Assembly (NCBI GenBank): GCA_030435675.1
Contig: CM059621.1
Span: forward strand, 12,090,001 to 12,154,000
Direction of reading: 5' to 3'
DNA length: 64,000 nt
Source: Steinernema hermaphroditum
Taxonomy: Eukaryota > Nematoda > Chromadorea > Rhabditida > Steinernematidae
The stretch's first letter is position 1, and every line of letters starts with the position of its first letter. Below the pieces are notes generated by a model. It saw nothing but the letters and a program-made list of their open reading frames with translations. It made no database searches and was not told the DNA's origin. This document shows, one piece after another, positions 16,165 through 33,525 of the stretch. The position numbers and the translations under genes are program-made.

Positions 16165-19100
16165 ATGGAGCTGGAAGGCGAAGTGTGGCGAGCCAGGAAG
16201 GTGCTCTACAACGCCTATTTCGGCAAAGGACGTTACACGCCACGAGGGTCCACAGATGATAAGTTTTTCCACTTCCTGGAGAAGCTGCTGGCTCTGTCAC
16301 GGAAGAAGTAAGTCACTCGAGCGGATGCTTATAATCGTAATTCAACACTCCAGGAAGGAGAAGAACGTGAGGACGCTGGAAATGTCCGTCCGAAGGAAAC
16401 TGCTCCGCTTTGACTTCAAGTGGCTCCGCTCGGCGCGTAATGAAGCCGATATTCGCCATGTAAGGTGCGGTGGTTCATCTGATTAGTGCATTTCGTTTGA
16501 TTTCAGCTCCGAGAAGATATTGTGCAGGAATTTGAATTCGCTGTTGGGTCGTACGCCGCCTACAGAAATCGGGAGCGTTTCAACAAAGTCAGGGATCTCC
16601 GTAGTGCACAGAAGTCGTTGCCAATTGCCGTGGAACGCCAAGAAATCCTTGATCTGCTTGAAATGGTAACGTTTCACATGACATCGATACATCTAAGAAT
16701 GGTCATTTTCAGAACCAAGTGGTCATTGTCGCCGGAGACACAGGATGCGGTAAAAGTACGCAACTCCCAAGGTACCTTCTGGAAGCCGGGTACGGGAAGA
16801 TCGCCTGCACTCAGCCAAGACGAATCGCGTGCACTGCCCTCGCGAAACGCGTCGCCTTCGAAACTCTCAACCAGTATGGGAACAAGGTCGCTTATCAGAT
16901 ACGTTTTGAGAAGACCAAAACACGCGTGACGAGGATCCTGTTCCTCACAGAAGGACTTCTTCTTCGGCAGCTTGCTTCTGACAAAAACCTGAACCAATAC
17001 AACGTAGTGTCTCCTCGTTCTCTTCAAGATCGCCAGTTTTCCTTCAGGTCATTATTCTCGACGAAGTGCACGAGCGAAACCTCCATGGAGACCTTCTGGT
17101 CGCACTCCTCCGCGATGTGATTCCACGAAGACCCGATCTGAAATTGATTCTCATGTCGGCCACCATTAATCTCGAACTCTTCAAGTCTTATTTCGAGAAC
17201 ACACCAGTCGTTCAGGTACTTTCATGATGACCGGTTCCCCTAGCCCAGTGGTTGCTCAGGTTCCAGGACGTCTTTACCCGATCGAATTGAAGTACATGCC
17301 CGTGAGAGAGCACGACATGCCGAAGAACGCGAAGATCGATGTGGGGCCCTATCTTCGAATCCTGCAGGTTCGTCGATTCTTCCTTCCTGATCTCATTCGA
17401 CCTCTCTTAAGATGATCGACCAGAAGTACCCTTCCAAAGACCGTGGTGATGTTCTCATTTTCGTCAACGGAATGGCCGCAATATCTACTATAGCCGAGGG
17501 ATTGAAGAAGTATGCAGAACACTCTAAACATTGGATCATATTGCGATTGCACAGGTGAGAACAGCTACATGCGTCGCTGTACGCTCGAGTATTCAGTTCC
17601 CTGACAGAAGAAGAACAGGACAAGGTGTTCGATATGGCGCCTGCCGGTGTCCGAAAATGCATCATCAGTACGAACATCGCTGAAACTTCGCTTACCATCG
17701 ATGAAATTCGCTTCGTTATTGACTCTGGAAAGGTGAATCTGGCAAAGTACGATCCCATCACCAGATCGTCAAGGCTTACTGACTGCTGGGTGTCGAAGGC
17801 TTCCGCAAATCAGCGAATGGGTAAGGTACGGAGTCTTTCCAAGCGTACTAATAATACTTTCAGGCCGAGCTGGTCGTACTGGTCCTGGTGTGTGTTTCCG
17901 CCTCTACTCAAGTGATCATTTCCACAAAATGGAAGACTTCACGCCCTCTGAGATTCGAAGAGTTTCGCTTGATTCGCTGATTCTCCAGATTCTAGGAATG
18001 AAACTGAACTGTATGATTGGTGACGAGTTCTTGCGTTATCTGACTGAAATTTTAGGGAATGTCGAAGATTTTCCCTTCCTGGAGCGGCCTGATGAAGAAG
18101 CCTTTAAGGAAGCGATTACTTCCCTCCAGAGCCAAGGAGTTTTGACAGAGGAGAGCCACAACGTTCTCACGCCCCTCGGAGAGATCCTCTCCATGCTTCC
18201 CGTCGATGTTGCCATCGGAAAGGTAACCTCCACAAGGTTGTGCTTCTCGTCACGGAAATTTTACAGATGCTGGTGTATTCCTGTGTAATGGACCAGCTAG
18301 AAGTCGTTCTTACCGTAGCCGCTGGCCTCTCCGTGCAGTCTCCGTTCACCAACCAGTCTTTCCAGAGCAGCAGCGTTGTCAAGAAGCGCGAGGAGATGAT
18401 GTCGAGCGTCGGAGATCCGTTCGTGCTCGTCAACGTTTATCGTGAATGGCTCGAAGCAAAGGCACGGAATGAGAATACCCGAGAGTGGTGCCGAGATCGG
18501 GGAATCGACGAGCCGCGACTCTACGAAATCTCGAAGTTGCGCCGCCAGTTCGCAGAGATTTTGGAACAAGCTAATCTGATCGAAAAGGAAGAGGAAGAAT
18601 CCACAAAGTTCGAGAGGAGAGTGAGAGCTGGAGATAAGAGACGGCTGAGGGAGTTGAAGAAGGAGGCGAGGTGGGTGGAGCTTTAGTGTGCCTTCTTATG
18701 CATCCTTCGTAGATTCAAAGAGAAAACGAGGAAAGTCCTGAAGTATGAAAAACACTTCGACTCCTTCATGGACATTGATGAAGAAGGCGATCAAAACGGT
18801 AATCAACTTCAGTAACCAGCGCATCATGAGCGTGCTTCAGATCCTCTGAAGGAGATCAGCTTCTTGGAGTTCGCTGTGGCCCACAATCAGCGAGAAGTGA
18901 GCAAAGTCATCAGAGCGCACAAACTAAGAGACCTTGCAAGACCAGTGGTGAAGATGATCATCGCCTCCGGATTGTATCCTCAAGTGGCAATGGAACACAA
19001 TCACAACGTCCATACGGTAAGTCGCGTGAGCCTCACCTACCGTATCCGCATGTACTTCTTTCAGTATGGGCACGCGCAACTCGCCTACTGCAGATCGAAG

Positions 19101-19933
19101 CCATTTGTGAAGATCCACCCGAACGGCTGTCTTTCGCAGTATCCGCACTTCATGGACATCGAGCAAGACCACAGCGGAGTTTCGGACAACCACCACTTGC
19201 TGTACTACGGCATGCTCCTGGAAACAACGGATCCTTTTCTGGTGAATACAGCAAAGATCCCGGCTGTATTGTTGATATCGTTTGCAAGAAGTGTAGGGAA
19301 GAGTCTTCTAACGCCCTAATCGATGTCCTAAGTTTAGGTCATCCACACAGAACCGCGAATCATTTGCTGCGACGGATTCATCGAATTCATTTTCGACCAC
19401 GATGACCACGCGCTGGAAGTGTTCGAACAGACCTGTGACATCAGAAGGAAGTTTGCAGAGAGTATGGCAAGGAAGCTGGCGAACCAGAAGTACGGAGGCA
19501 GAGAGCTGGACAGGAAAGTCGAGAAGCTCTCCAGATCTCCTTATCCTCTTAGGTATGTGGACACGTTTATCACCACGAACTGACATCTATTCCTAGGCTC
19601 CGAAGAATAATGTACCCTCCCGTTGGAATGCTTCTCGGTGTTCATTCCCTGAAAGGAGAGGCGATATCCTTCGCGACTACTGTCGTCAAAGACGACTCTG
19701 CGGACGATTTGACTTCGCAGGATTCACAAGAGTCCAAAGAGGTACGCATTACTATCAGAAATGTAATCATTAGTACATTTCAGGCCAAGGATGGGGAGGA
19801 ACCCGAAGAGAAGAAAGGGAAGCTTCAGAGATTCTGTCAGTTCTGTCAGAAGACGCTGAACTTCGTTAGCCCTACCGATGCCGCGCGGCATATGCGATCT
19901 CACAAGGAACAAAGAAGCGAAGCGGAGTTGTAG
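16165..19933 (+). CDS. smgl-2: DEAH/DEVH-box RNA helicase, DHX34 / SMGL-2 type
   Basis: Seventeen exons (16165-16307, 16354-16459, 16507-16665, 16713-17003, 17048-17215, 17260-17367, 17412-17554, 17597-17820, 17864-18010, 18056-18222, 18267-18670, 18713-18798, 18841-19016, 19065-19292, 19338-19552, 19597-19741, 19784-19933) join without error to 1019 residues; all introns are 42-48 nt. Motif I is GDTGCGKST, Ia TQPRRIA, II DEVH, III SAT, then [15 protein letters not shown] and [12 protein letters not shown] (VI). The HA2/OB-fold region follows ([13 protein letters not shown], then [13 protein letters not shown]). The C-terminus has a C2H2-like finger, CQFCQ then HMRSH, as in DHX34. DHX34 proteins remodel UPF1-containing complexes in nonsense-mediated mRNA decay. 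The 45-nt intron at 18011-18055 is a multiple of three with no stop, so retention would insert 15 residues. Confidence 0.93.
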
Positions 19934-20439: not shown

Positions 20440-20604
20440 TTCTTTTTTCGTTCTTTTTTTTTAGTTCTTCTACCGTTTCCACGAAGACGAAATGTCACAA
20501 ATGCTTCTGACGCGCCGACCAGAAAGAAGAGAACACTAGGCGAGGAAGATTGAGCAACCTCCTGAAGGGACATCTGCCTTGGGAACCTTGACATCCATGC
20601 TTTT
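20440..20604 (-). pseudogene. Decayed second copy of the last two Lon-like exons (A)
   Basis: Directly after an acceptor-like ATATTAG inside the terminal exon, the minus strand repeats the protease exon. It reads KSMDVKVPKADVPSGG, then an in-frame stop after IFLA. Remains of the exon-5 sequence (TTCGTGGAAACGG) lie further downstream. In the annotated gene this stretch is read in another frame as the C-terminal tail. It is the relic of a tandem duplication of exons 4 and 5. Confidence 0.75.
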
Positions 20605-22393
20605 CTAATATCGGGGCTTCTTCCTTCAGAATCATTTCCTCGATGAGTTCTTCCACCGTTTCTACGAAAACGACTGCCATTTCTCTCTGAAATCAATGCC
20701 GGTCAACCTACTCGTCCTCCTAAACCTCACCTTCAGTCTTTCTCCCATCTCGTTGTTGACATGCACTTCGTTGCTTTTGGCAAGAACGATCCTTTTCGTT
20801 CCATTTTTGAACGCTGCATCTGCCTTCTGATGAAGCCCCCCTACGGCAAAGACACGTCCACTTAGGTGAATCGCTCCGGAGACGGCTGAATCGCTTCTGA
20901 CGCGTCGACCAGAAAGGAGAGAGTATAGTGAGAGGAAGATTGAGAAGCCTCCTGAAGGGCCATCAGCCTTGGGAAACTTGACATTGATGCTTTTCTAAAA
21001 TCAGGACTACTTTTGGCGGAAGAGAACAATTCGAAGCGAACCGTCAGATTCTTCTTAGGGATCCCGAACTTGTCGGCATTCTTCCTTATATAGTTATAGG
21101 CCGTTTCCACCGAACAACGCACCATCATTGTCATTGAATCGCAGTTCATCTCAATGGTCGGATCCTTCCTGAACCAGCGAAATGGGAGAGATGAAAGGAG
21201 TGGTTTAGGGCGGAACGATGACTCCATGACAGAGACGTCACCCTTGAATCCACCGCCGATATGAACTCCCAGTATTCTGGTACACCCCATACGTAGCGCG
21301 TTCCCTTCCACGATGGTCATATTCGAATCGAAGGACCACCTTTCTGCGTGGCTTCGATCGATCTGTCCAAGAACGCTGCCCTGGGCTACGGAGTCGAGCT
21401 TCGCAGTCAGGTCTTCGACGCCGAGTTCGTCGGTGTAGAAGTCAATGAGGAGTCGAAGTGTGTCGTCCGGGAACAGATTTGGTTGTAGACCGTACTTCTG
21501 AAGGATAGTTGGGAGGATGGACTTCTTGACAGCTCGAATTTTCTCATCAGTTGAAGGTCCCATCGGAAAGGGTAAAAAACGAGCCATTTCTGGCAAAATT
21601 GTTCTCTTGTGGCTAGTTTCTGTCTTGTTCCAGTTGATCTTCATGAAAACGAGGAAGTGGACGTTGGAAAGGTCGAAGGGCACTTCCAGGAATCTGGAAT
21701 CGGACGGTCATGACAGGAGCACTTAGAGGGTTCTACCTGTCCACGAAAGCGTTATTTCTTGTTTTGTCAGTAAGCTTGCATAACACATTCCACAGCTTTA
21801 CATCCTCAATCTCGTCCATGATCTCCAGGCGAATCACAGGATTGCAGCACTTGGCCCTGAGGATGGCTTGCATCACAATTCCCAGGGAGTCCCTCGATCC
21901 CAAAACGTCCTTTGGCCGACTGTTCGCGTCGAAATGGATCGTCTCCACCGGTCGGCCGAGGGCTTTGCCGACGTCGATCAACGCCCAGATCTCCGGATGT
22001 CCGGTTATTTTCAATCTTTCCACTTTGAAGTGGGGAAATGTCCTTTTCAGCAACCTATACTCGAGAAGGTGTCTCTTGAAAATCTCGAAGCCACGACGAT
22101 GATCGTACGTCCTCCGCAGATTCTTCCTAAAATAAGATCGGTAATCAGAGCTCGGCACTCTCCACTTACATAGCCCGGTGAATGCTGCCGATGCTCCCTC
22201 CTTCCTCGCAGAATTTCCCCCAGGGAAGTTCTTGAACCACTTTTGTCCATTCGGTCGATTTCTCCTTCCTTTTGATGCACTGATGAATGGGGTGAATCTT
22301 TTCGTTCGTTTTTTCCTCCCGAATGGTCTCACCTTTCTCCAGTCCATCTTCATGTGGCAAATACGGCTCCCATTTGGCAGAGAATGTCATCAT
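20495..22393 (-). CDS. Lon-protease-like protein with degenerate ATPase (copy A)
   Basis: Five exons (22393-22170, 22126-21737, 21693-21042, 20994-20731, 20686-20495) give 573 residues. The chain aligns with Lon from just before the AAA+ module: KVVQELPWGKFCEE, then the P-loop position, which reads TGHPEIWALIDVGKALGRP and lacks GxxGxGKT. Next come NPVIRLEIMDEIEDV at Walker B, NNAFVDRFLEVPFDLSNVHF, the alpha domain with IDFYTDELGVEDL (sensor-2 Arg absent), and the protease domain. Catalytic Ser436 sits in PKADGPSGG and Lys479 in GGLHQK, 43 residues apart as in E. coli Lon (Ser679/Lys722). The N-terminal LON substrate domain is missing, and no clear mitochondrial presequence is visible. Inference: a Lon-derived Ser-Lys peptidase or regulator that cannot use ATP. 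The start is the ATG-ATG pair conserved in both copies; an upstream Met at 22525 is possible. Confidence 0.82.
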
Positions 22394-22594
22394 TTGGAGG
22401 TGATAAATCATATTGAAACTGATGACCTTTTTATGATATGTAAAATGTTGTACGAAAAGCGATGCTTGTATTTTCGCCTGATGTCGGTTTTGACATACTT
22501 TAACAGCGACCTTTGATTTTGACATGATTAGGTCACCCTGAACATGCCCTCCTCTGTGTCCTCACAACACCCTTCGAAATTCGATTCCATCCAT

Positions 22595-23702
22595 TTATTT
22601 TATTCTCACGCTCATCTCGTAAACATCTGTTTTCTCCAAAGTGACTTTAAAGGATCGCTCAGTGGGGAACGGTTCGTTGTCTAGCTCCTTTAGAACCTGC
22701 TCATACTGGTCATCGTTGACGTAGGATAGGGACGCCATTCCTGATGTCCGATCGGGTGGGAACGAACGAATAAAGTTTACGATTTCCTCGCTCGAAAAAT
22801 TGTCACTTCTGATAGCGAATTCGCTGAGGAACGGATTAGCGCTGAAGAGTTTGAATAGACGGTCGTGGTCGCCGTTGTAGGACAGCTCGAACCTCTGAAA
22901 ACAGATCAGAGAGTCCGTACTGCAGTAGCCAATCTACCCTGAGTGCTTTAGCCTTCCTCAGAACACTCTCTATCTCGTCCAGAATAGCGAAGGGCCGTTT
23001 TATCCAGTTCTTTCTGATCGCAATGAAGGACTTGAAGGAAACTCTCGGCTGCAGGAGCTCTCGAGGGACCTAAAGAGCTCAACAACGGCCATGGGTAGCC
23101 GTAGCAAGCGCATACCTGACTTTCCGTCATGCCTAGTTGGAGCTCCTCTAATTCTTCACAGTTTGGCAGCTGCAGCACTTGGATCAATCTCTTTAAATTG
23201 GATCTTTTACAATCATCGTTGTAGGAGTGCCACTTGATGGACCTGACTTCCACATTTAGGGGCCAAAAGACAACCAAGTTCACAGGGAAAGTAGTAACTG
23301 CAAAGCGTTTGCATTCAACATCCACGCGATCTACGAAAGCGCTTAACTATATCTTAAAATTGAAGCCAAACAAACACTTTACTTGAATCTAACATCGACC
23401 CTCAAACGCGGAAGGAACTCTTGGATCCTTGCATTCCACTCTTTGTTCACGAGGCGACAGCGAAGAAGGTCAGAAAGGGCGAAATACTTAGTGAAAAGCA
23501 GGTACTGAAGTTCGTCGGAGAGGAAGAAAGGCGATAAGACGGAGTCACAAGGTGGGGAGTCGGCCGGAGCTGAGCTCTTTCTCGAGGTTGATGCGCCCAT
23601 GTAACCGTCGATGAGCGCCCAGCACCGCCACGACCGCCGAATCAAGTGAATGGGATTCCCGCGGAGTGACTCAAACTGTGGCGTCCTTGATCGTCGCACC
23701 AT
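22595..23702 (-). CDS. F-box protein (substrate adaptor), possible frameshift
   Basis: Exon pieces are 23702-23383, about 23330-23116, 23069-22938 and 22894-22595. The first has an F-box: LSDELQYLLFTKYFALSDLL, then RCRLVNKEWNARI. The rest is a leucine-rich C-terminal region of the kind nematode F-box proteins use for substrate binding (IKWHSYNDD, LEELQLGMTES, ISFIR-type segments). F-box proteins recruit targets to SCF ubiquitin ligases. Exons 2-4 join cleanly (phase 0), but exon 1 ends in phase 2 while exon 2 needs phase 1. Either there is a one-base frameshift, an unusual splice site (an acceptor near 23255 would restore phase but drop about 25 residues), or a sequence error. The start is uncertain: Met at 23702 or further upstream to 23924. 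It lies head-to-tail upstream of Lon-like copy A and is not duplicated with it. Confidence 0.6.
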
Positions 23703-24399
23703 TCCACTTTGTGTTGGGCGTTTGGTCTTCTTGAGCGTTCGAACGAACCTTCGCTGGTTTGTGATTTCCAGTTGAAATGCACTCAAGGAAGGCGCACACT
23801 TTACAACGTCTATGGGAGCGGAAGAAGGTGGTGCCGATCTAACTACAGAAATAGAATGTAGTCGAATGAACAAAGCAAGAATCTGACGTTTTCGCTTATG
23901 GCAAGCAACAAACGATGTTTTCACTTTCCAAACGACACTTTAAATACACTCCTTCATCCGCAACTTGCCGAACAAAATTATCAACAAAACAAACACTTTG
24001 AGAACAAGCAAGTTCTTTGCCAGAGAAGACAAGTTCCGCGTTTTCGAACAAAGAACAGGAAACGCTCTTTGTATGCGTTTTGCTTGTGTCTCAAAATTAG
24101 AGACGCTTCCCAAACACATTCTCCGCTTTCCAAACACAGACACACGCGTCTCTAGCATGGACTAGTTTATAGCCCATTGCATTCTTATAGGCTTGAATAT
24201 CATATAAATCAAAGCCACCCTGTATACAATATCTTCCGTGGATCGGTCTTTAGCGCGTACATGTGACAAGCAAAAGAGTCATATTTTCTAAGAATCGCAA
24301 CGAAATTTAAAGCCTACAAGTTTTAAAGTGTGTAAGCGCGCCTGGAAAAGGCGCCAACTAAATTCTACCTAAATTCTAAAGCTTGCCATTCCGATTCGC

Positions 24400-31174: not shown

Positions 31175-31570
31175 TATAACAGACAGTATAACAACAACCA
31201 GTAATTTATGTGTAAAGCAAAAAAAGAATACGCGACTGTCGCTAATGCTCTTGCAGTTCTGAATTTCCAAAAGAGCCAGATTCTGTCAGCCAGATTTCTA
31301 AGGCTATAGCCCCCTCCTTAAAATCAAAAGGCTAAGTCAAGCTTGGATGTTAGGCCATGCACAAAAAAAGAACTACTAGTGATTGGATAAAATAAATCGA
31401 CCCAATCCTGACCAAACGGGTCGTTCTCCACTGAACTTTTAAAGTCATCTGAGAAATTTGCCTTTTGGAAATTCAGCATCAGGTTAACATAAAACGCACT
31501 GAAATACAAGCATCGCTTTTTTACATATCATAGAAAGGTTATTGGATTCAATATCATTCAGTACCTCCAA

Positions 31571-33461
31571 ATGATGACGTACTCTGCCAAATGGGCGTCG
31601 TATTTGCCACATGAAGATGGACTGGAGAAAGGTGAGACCATTCGGGAGAAAAAAACGAACGAAAAGATTCTCCTCGTGCATCAGAGCACCAAGAGGAAGG
31701 AGAAATCGACCGAATGGACAAAAGTGGTTCAAGAACTTCCCTGGGGGAAATTCTGCGAGGAAGGAGGGAGCATCGGCAGCATTCACCGGGCTTTGTATGT
31801 AGGAAGTGTCGACCTCTGATTGCCGACCTTATTTCAGGAGGAATCTGTGGAAGACACACGATCTTGGCTTCAAGACTCTCAAGGGACACGTTCTAGTGTA
31901 TAGGCTACTGAAAAGGACGCTTCCTCACTTCGAAGCGGAAAGTTTGAAAATAACCGGACATCCAGAGATCTGGGCATTGATCGACGTCGGCAAAGCCCTC
32001 GGCCGCCCAGTGGAGACGATCCGTTTCGACGCGAACAGCCGGCCAAAGGACGTTTTGGGATCGAGGGACTCCCTGGGAAGTGTGATGCAAGCCATCCTCA
32101 GGGCCAAATGCTGCAATCCTGTGATTCGCCTGGAGATCGTGGACGAGATTGAAGATGTAAAGCTGTGGAATGTGTTATGCAAGCTTACTGACAAAACAAG
32201 AAATAACGCTTTCGTCGACAGGTAGAACCCTAGAAGTGCTCCTATCATGACCGTCCGATTCCAGATTCCTGGAAGTGCCCTTCGACCTTTCCAACGTCCA
32301 CTTCCTCGTTTTCATGAAGATCAACTGGAACGAGACAGAAACTAGCGAGAAGAGAACAATTTTGCCAGAAATAGCACGTTTTTTACCTTTTCCGACGGGA
32401 CCCTCTACTGATGAGAAGATTCGAGCCGTCAAGAAATCCATCCTCCCAACTATCCTTTTGAAGTACAATCTACAACCAAATCTGTTCCCGGACGACGCAC
32501 TTCGACTCCTCATCGACTTCTACACCAACGAACCCGGCATCGATGACCTGACTGCGAAGCTCGACTCCGTAGCCAAAAACGTCCAGGGCAGCGTTCTTGA
32601 ACAGATCGAACGAAGCTGCGGCGAAAGGTGGTCCTTCGATTCAGATATGACCATCGTGGAAGGGAACGCGCTACGTATGGGGTGTGCCAGAATCCTGGCA
32701 GTTTATCTTGCCGGTGGATACAAGGGTGACGTCTCTGTATTGGAGTCATCGTTCCGCCCTGAACCACTCCTTTGGTCTTTCCCATTTCGCTGGTTCAGCA
32801 AAGATCCAACCATTGAGATGAACTGCGATTCAATTGAGCTGCGTTCTTTGGTTGAAACGGCCTACAACTATATAAGGAAGAATGCCGACAAGTTCGGGAT
32901 TCCTCAGAAGAATCTGACGGTAGGAATTGTTCGCTTCCACCAAAAGTAGCCTCGATTTTAGAAAAACATCGATGTGAAATATCCCCAGATAGATGGTCTT
33001 TCAAGTGGCTGCTCAGTCTTCCTCTCCCTATACTCTCTTCTTTCTGGTCGACGTGTCAGAAGCGATTCAGCCGTCTCCGGAGCGATTCACCTTAGTGGAC
33101 GTGTCCTTGATGTATGGGGACTTCATCAGAAAGCAGATGCAGCGTTCAAAAACGGAATAAAACGGATCGTCTTTCCCAAAGGCAACGAAGTGGACATCAA
33201 CAACGAGATGGGAGAAAGACTAAAGGTGTGTTTTAAGAGGACGAGTGGGTTGACCGGCATTGATTTCAGAGAGAAATGACGGTCGTCTTCGTAGAAACGG
33301 TAGAAGAACTCATTGAAGAAATGATTCTGAAGGAAGAGGCCCCGATTTTAGAAAAGCATCGATGTGGAGTTTCCCAAGGCAGATGGCCCTTCAGGTGGCT
33401 GCTCAGTCTTCCTCTCTTTGTGTTCTCTTCTTTTTGGTCGGCGCGTCAGAAGCATTTGTGA
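31571..33461 (+). CDS. Lon-protease-like protein with degenerate ATPase (copy B)
   Basis: Five exons (31571-31794, 31838-32221, 32265-32919, 32962-33225, 33270-33461) give 572 residues, colinear with copy A. The P-loop position again reads TGHPEIWALIDVGKALGRP, so ATP binding should be lost. The protease domain keeps Ser435 and Lys478, 43 residues apart, but the surrounding motif has drifted: QIDGLSSG instead of KADGPSGG, and VWGLHQK instead of VGGLHQK. The alpha domain reads IDFYTNEPGIDDL. All five exons remain open and every splice phase fits, so the gene has stayed intact since duplication. It may still cleave peptides, or it may be a catalytically weakened paralog. The CYP44 fragment ending at 31174 lies immediately upstream. 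Confidence 0.8.
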
Positions 33462-33525
33462 CACTTCGTCTTTGTAGAAACGGAAATGATTCTGAGGGAA
33501 GAGGACTGTAGAAAATATTGAAAAT
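33352..33525 (+). pseudogene. Decayed second copy of the last two Lon-like exons (B)
   Basis: After an acceptor-like CCGATTTTAG the plus strand reads KSIDVEFPKADGPSGG, then SVFLSLCSLLFGRRVRS, before leaving the frame. An internally shortened exon-5 relic (TTTGTAGAAACGGAAATG) follows. The relic keeps the canonical DGPSGG motif that the live exon of copy B has lost. Confidence 0.75.

Follow-up and report, generated by a model that had tools for sequence, protein, structure and literature searches.

Lon is normally defined by the coupling of adenosine triphosphate (ATP)-driven unfolding to proteolysis. In bacteria, Lon-like proteases that work without ATP are already on record, namely LonC (MtaLonC of Meiothermus taiwanensis and TTC1975 of Thermus; MEROPS S16.007), and MtaLonC is described as a hexamer that shows no ATPase activity, needs no ATP to cut unfolded proteins and leaves folded ones uncut (PMC3391209). 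Among prokaryotes, stand-alone S16 proteins (Lon_C-only) likewise carry the S16 domain without a recognised working ATPase, 39 of them being counted in a 2008 survey (PMC2605481), and passages of two further articles mention Lon or LonC only in passing (PMC7804941, PMC3296651). The subject of this work is a Lon-like gene of the nematode Steinernema hermaphroditum, gene copy 1 (QR680_017973), which lies in a 64,000-nucleotide stretch of contig CM059621.1 (assembly GCA_030435675.1, positions 12,090,001 to 12,154,000, hereafter the window). We propose tentatively, at a little short of an even chance, that copy 1 encodes a Lon-derived protein that has no ATP-binding and substrate-gripping motifs, keeps the catalytic Ser-Lys pair, and acts as an ATP-independent peptidase of unfolded polypeptides.

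Splice-aware alignment recovered the five-exon gene that an earlier note, made from the letters alone, had outlined in the window (Table 1). Its product has 573 amino acids (aa) with Ser436 and Lys479, and the database protein QR680_017973 is the same sequence with six extra N-terminal residues; the exon model of the earlier note is therefore that of the annotation. The protein aligns colinearly with Lon over the linker and onward through the S16 domain, its two catalytic residues being 43 positions apart as the note had said, and the profile search likewise bore out the kinship, with a strong match to Pfam Lon_C (PF05362; 2.3e-25, 89.8 bits, curated cut-off 21.1). This cut-off was also passed by eight of eight annotated paralogues scanned, and human LONP1 aligns colinearly with residues 53-534 of copy 1 (about 8e-20). 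Chance resemblance to Lon was ruled out by the Lon_C match together with the LONP1 alignment. No Pfam match to an AAA domain was obtained in copy 1, Lon_lid appearing only below threshold, nor was there a match to the LON N-domain, whose model (PF02190) matches only the canonical Lon at C2:13.24 Mb in this genome. At the P-loop position copy 1 has GH---PEIW in place of GPPGxGKTS, three residues being deleted, and the sensor-2 position reads ELGVEDL against EAGVRxL. The motif table and the alignment columns leave copy 1 with no working AAA+ Walker A and B; the missing P-loop, the replaced sensor-2 arginine and the absent N-domain are all as the letters had suggested.

The genome, searched with the Pfam model and four proteins, holds about 20 Lon-related loci (counts are lower bounds). 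These comprise a single canonical Lon, 13 divergent paralogues whose frames are open, and six loci that are broken or partial. The canonical gene at C2:13.24 Mb is the only one found and is mitochondrial LONP1-like by eye; the 13 divergent paralogues were modelled without stop or frameshift, some of the models having no start codon. The P-loop is absent in 11 of the 13, and all eleven of these have both Ser and Lys, six representatives being 32-57% identical. The two copies in the window, which the earlier note had treated as a pair, are both open but belong to this larger set of eleven. Walker A (GxxGxGK[ST]) is kept in the remaining two, at C3:14.73 and C1:15.28; the former keeps P-loop and dyad, while the latter has lost the serine (GADVG), the dyad being kept in 12/13 overall. 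In all 13 the canonical stretch GHRRTYxGAMPG, which we take to be pore loop 1, is altered and five residues shorter, and the Walker B glutamate is absent (the motif names pore loop, arginine finger and sensor are our presumed assignments throughout). The arginine of LLDRMEVI, presumably the arginine finger, is absent in 13/13 in one alignment; another aligns an arginine to this position in the five recent copies introduced below, for which the loss is unsure. Among the distant members without the Walker A lysine, two still score above the AAA_5 cut-off and one above the AAA cut-off. The C1:15.28 relative is an intronless open frame of 591 codons on the minus strand (C1:15280797-15282227) with the P-loop GPEGVGKST, and it has a broken relative at C1:16.22 Mb.

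Three protein searches, covered as the best 120 of 196, 354 and 1752 rows and in two cases drawing on a capped set of candidates, showed no row that could be recognised as a member in a different named species, which is a weak negative with most row sequences unread; the searches were also lossy, one of them leaving P0001-P0003, members of its own query, off the matches listed, and restriction of the family to S. hermaphroditum is not claimed. The titles and abstract starts listed from open-licence PMC papers, some of the lists being capped, contained nothing on this family or on a LonC-like Lon in eukaryotes.

Selection was estimated in ten pairs drawn from the five recent copies of contig C1, by the ratio of nonsynonymous to synonymous substitution rates (dN/dS). 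The mean over residues 1-535 is 0.45 (95% confidence interval, CI, 0.36-0.58), none of 1000 bootstraps reaching 1 or more, and the comparison of copies proposed in the earlier note thus gave a value not near 1. By part, dN/dS is 0.38 in the AAA-like half and 0.34 in the protease. None of the five copies has a stop, against 4.6 per copy expected in a neutral star-tree simulation, in which 0/1000 runs gave five open copies. These substitution patterns indicate purifying selection on the AAA-like and the protease half of the recent copies alike; since dN/dS is low in the AAA-like half and the frames are open, this half is no relic on its way out.

Like LonC, the Steinernema family joins an S16 Ser-Lys protease to a degenerate AAA-like module and has no LON N-domain, and ATP-independent cleavage of unfolded chains, which is shown for MtaLonC, is proposed here by analogy. 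The AAA-like half would then, on the model of bacterial LonC, be a passive scaffold that forms a ring above the proteolytic chamber; peptides or unfolded chains would enter unaided and be cut by the dyad, folded substrates would not be unfolded, and the protein would probably be cytosolic. The new ATP-independent peptidase put forward in the earlier note is upheld as far as Lon descent, the kept dyad and the lost nucleotide-binding loop are concerned, but because of the LonC precedent the novelty lies in the lineage and not in the principle. LonC entries were matched by sequence; they are not among the 50 structure matches listed, an absence that carries no weight. Two hallmarks of LonC were tested and both are missing. 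The seven-residue insertion after the helix of the catalytic lysine (PMC3391209) is absent in copy 1, where the stretch aligns gap-free to bacterial LonA, and where LonC has Asp before the catalytic Ser (PMC9569914), the five recent copies have P, L or G and the remaining six N, S, L, R or A. The P-loop-less family has lost its Walker A lysine outright, whereas MtaLonC keeps GPPSLGKHE and binds nucleotide, and the Steinernema family differs further in being eukaryotic, intron-bearing and multi-gene. As both tested hallmarks are missing, the motorless Lon family likely arose independently of LonC, to judge from the sequences.

With LonA and human LONP1 the family shares the colinear order from linker to S16, the Ser-Lys spacing of 43 and, in predicted models, the same fold; in contrast to them it lacks the LON N-domain, Walker A and the Walker B glutamate, its pore loop is shorter, and its identity to Lons is only about 20-30%. 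It differs from the Lon_C-only proteins in keeping a full-length AAA-like half under selection.

Several observations weigh against an active peptidase, and most of them would suit a pseudoprotease, that is, a Lon fold that binds unfolded chains or partners without cutting them, in which the Ser-Lys pair survives structurally or by descent; we regard this alternative as possible, if on balance unlikely. All eleven P-loop-less members have a deletion just before the serine motif (four residues in 8/11, three in 3/11), none of the nine annotated members retains the histidines of HIHxPEGA, and 7/11, both window copies among them, have lost the Glu of TGE, with Ala in its place in each of the five recent copies. 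The proline before the catalytic Ser is kept in only one of the eleven, a residue whose identity is reported to be of little importance (PMC9569914). Catalysis in the family of copy 1 could, on these residues, be weak or gone. The relative at C1:15.28 Mb has no serine at all, and isoform P0006 of a sister copy (QR680_017946, C1:12.015) is annotated without the catalytic exon 4, although it continues at the 3' end into phosphoglycerate kinase and may be an annotation error. The AAA-like half appears constrained about as much as the protease half, as a binding role predicts. In an alignment of nine annotated members with 64 database Lons (the named ones bacterial, one eukaryotic), the columns conserved in at least 90% of the 64 number 83 in the linker/AAA part and 40 in the protease; copy 1 retains 33/83 and 22/40, all nine members 16/83 and 13/40, so that the protease columns are only somewhat better retained. 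The inter-domain residues 316-389 give a dN/dS of 0.76 (CI 0.45-1.43). In the predicted structures, a check proposed in the earlier note, the Lon fold is retained, but these were built on an alignment rich in true Lons, the P-loop segment of the copy 1 model has low confidence, and its domains are not arranged as in a Lon protomer (whole-chain root-mean-square deviation about 15-18 Å). What speaks for a working peptidase over a pseudoprotease is that Ser and Lys stay in 11/11 paralogues that have diverged to the identities given above, even though the serine is seemingly dispensable for an open gene, the C1:15.28 frame being open without it.

The other explanations are less probable. The losses complement each other, one relative having GPEGVGKST with GADVG and eleven members a kept serine but no P-loop, and would fit mixed rings to which the C1:15.28 or C3:14.73 relatives give ATP binding and the P-loop-less members proteolysis, but all 13 carry the pore-loop deletion and have no Walker B glutamate, which would leave a nucleotide-binding partner little to pull with, and we consider such rings improbable. 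That copy 1 joins hexamers of LONP1 as a blocking or tuning subunit, the dominant modulator of the earlier note, has in its favour the domain order shared by sequence and the shared predicted fold. The only canonical Lon found is, however, mitochondrial-like by eye and shares no introns with the family, and copy 1, at the low identity to Lons already given, has no LON N-domain and an acidic N-terminus unlike a mitochondrial presequence, none being recognisable by eye; we therefore set this proposal aside as very unlikely. Decay of functionless duplicates could account for the six broken or partial loci among about 20 and for a gene dispersed as a bare unit of ~1.95 kb, yet dN/dS in the recent copies is 0.45 and below 1 in every bootstrap, and all five are open where neutrality predicts several stops in each, and the chance of it is slim. 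Pseudogene status of the five recent copies was ruled out by the same dN/dS and absence of stops.

In a maximum-likelihood tree of 26 rows, with the P-loop columns included, long branches and a midpoint root, the eleven P-loop-less members form one group (100/100 support) and the two P-loop-bearing relatives fall outside it. Introns at 471/phase 2 and 748/phase 0 are common to all eleven and shared by the C3:14.73 relative, while the canonical Lon shares none; an intron at 840 is shared by seven of the eleven, three others having one a single column away. In the simplest order of events the pore loop would have changed first, a single loss of the P-loop would have followed, and the serine would have been lost separately. 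A retrocopy origin of the P-loop-less members was ruled out by the shared introns, only the C1:15.28 relative being intronless. Descent from the worm's own canonical Lon was also rejected, with no shared introns and a separate place on the tree, although the long branches leave the root unsure. The introns speak against a recent origin of the family from canonical Lon, of which the genome gave no second example, and peroxisomal Lon (LONP2) may be an ancestor; the family differs from LONP2 in having no clear peroxisomal C-terminus. Peroxisomal sorting of the family was considered and disfavoured: in our models KHL is the C-terminus of three recent copies out of five (one ends in NHL and one model stops short), yet the tail is a duplicate of exon 4 read out of frame, its dN/dS is 0.55 (CI 0.27-1.07), and other paralogues end otherwise.

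A wider possibility, which we think rather unlikely, is that an animal lineage took apart the motor of Lon and multiplied what was left into a toolkit of eleven motorless genes, beside a P-loop-bearing, serine-less relative with which they possibly share rings. If true, the LonC principle would have been invented a second time, in a eukaryote, and divided among complementary subunits. One genome offers a series from the canonical Lon, through a form with P-loop and dyad but no full pore loop, to eleven P-loop-less genes, with one serine-less, and such a series suggests in what order a motor that unfolds proteins may be dismantled. The family also makes a role of the AAA+ scaffold without ATP use testable, and since forward and reverse genetics exist in S. 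hermaphroditum (PMC10858997), loss-of-function tests are realistic.

Table 1. Positions of the Lon-like genes, their motifs and related fragments (window numbering unless a contig is given)
Feature	Position	Strand	Basis or remark
Lon-like gene copy 1 (QR680_017973)	20495..22393	minus	splice-aware protein alignment and database match
Copy 1 exons 1-5	22170-22393, 21737-22126, 21042-21693, 20731-20994, 20498-20686	minus	stop 20495-20497
P-loop-equivalent stretch TGHPEIW, aa 116-122	21985..22005	minus	Walker A Lys and Ser/Thr gone, 3 residues deleted; hand-counted
Ser436 catalytic codon TCA, exon 4	20953..20955	minus	hand-counted
Lys479 catalytic codon AAG, exon 4	20824..20826	minus	hand-counted
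Partial exon 4 duplicate, 3' of copy 1	20485..20604	minus	sequence match
Lon-like gene copy 2 (QR680_017976)	31571..33461	plus	exons 31571-31794, 31838-32221, 32265-32919, 32962-33225, 33270-33458
Partial exon 4 duplicate, 3' of copy 2	33352..33462	plus	sequence match
Exon 4-like pieces outside the window	C1:12016083, 11544010, 15300863, 11547460, 11983279		sequence match
Broken or partial locus	C2:5.82		one in-frame stop
Broken or partial loci	C4:4.55, C1:16.22, C1:15.30, C1:11.544
Broken or partial locus	C2:5.728		AAA-like piece only

Copy 2 has an open frame throughout and the dyad (DGLSSG, WGLHQK), and its P-loop is absent. The recent copies are alike over ~1.95 kb including introns and barely beyond the gene, with similar edges (20473-22445 and 31519-33483 in the window, and L037:5275-7213), as if this unit had been dispersed in one piece; no target-site duplications were seen at its edges by eye. 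A partial exon 4 duplicate lies downstream in five of five recent copies and in two broken ones. Exon 5 of copy 1 and of copy 2 reads this exon 4 duplicate in another frame, the last ~36 residues being an overprinted copy of the dyad-carrying exon. Elsewhere in the genome, the annotated proteins P0005 and P0006 (QR680_017946, C1:12.015 Mb) consist of a Lon-like copy running into the C-terminal part of a phosphoglycerate kinase and are either fusion transcripts or an annotation error, and the annotated protein at C5:12.785 (P0238) ends differently from our model. An Rfam scan of the window gave no match at the gathering threshold. Copy 2 is flanked by a duplicated 3' part of a cytochrome P450 gene (30413-31174 and 36971-37731, 98% identical). 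The neighbours of copy 1 are a gene at 22595-23939 (minus) for a protein with an F-box-like match below threshold and, at 17737-19933 (plus), a helicase gene with HA2_C and OB_NTP_bind matches and a sub-threshold DHX34-type zinc finger.
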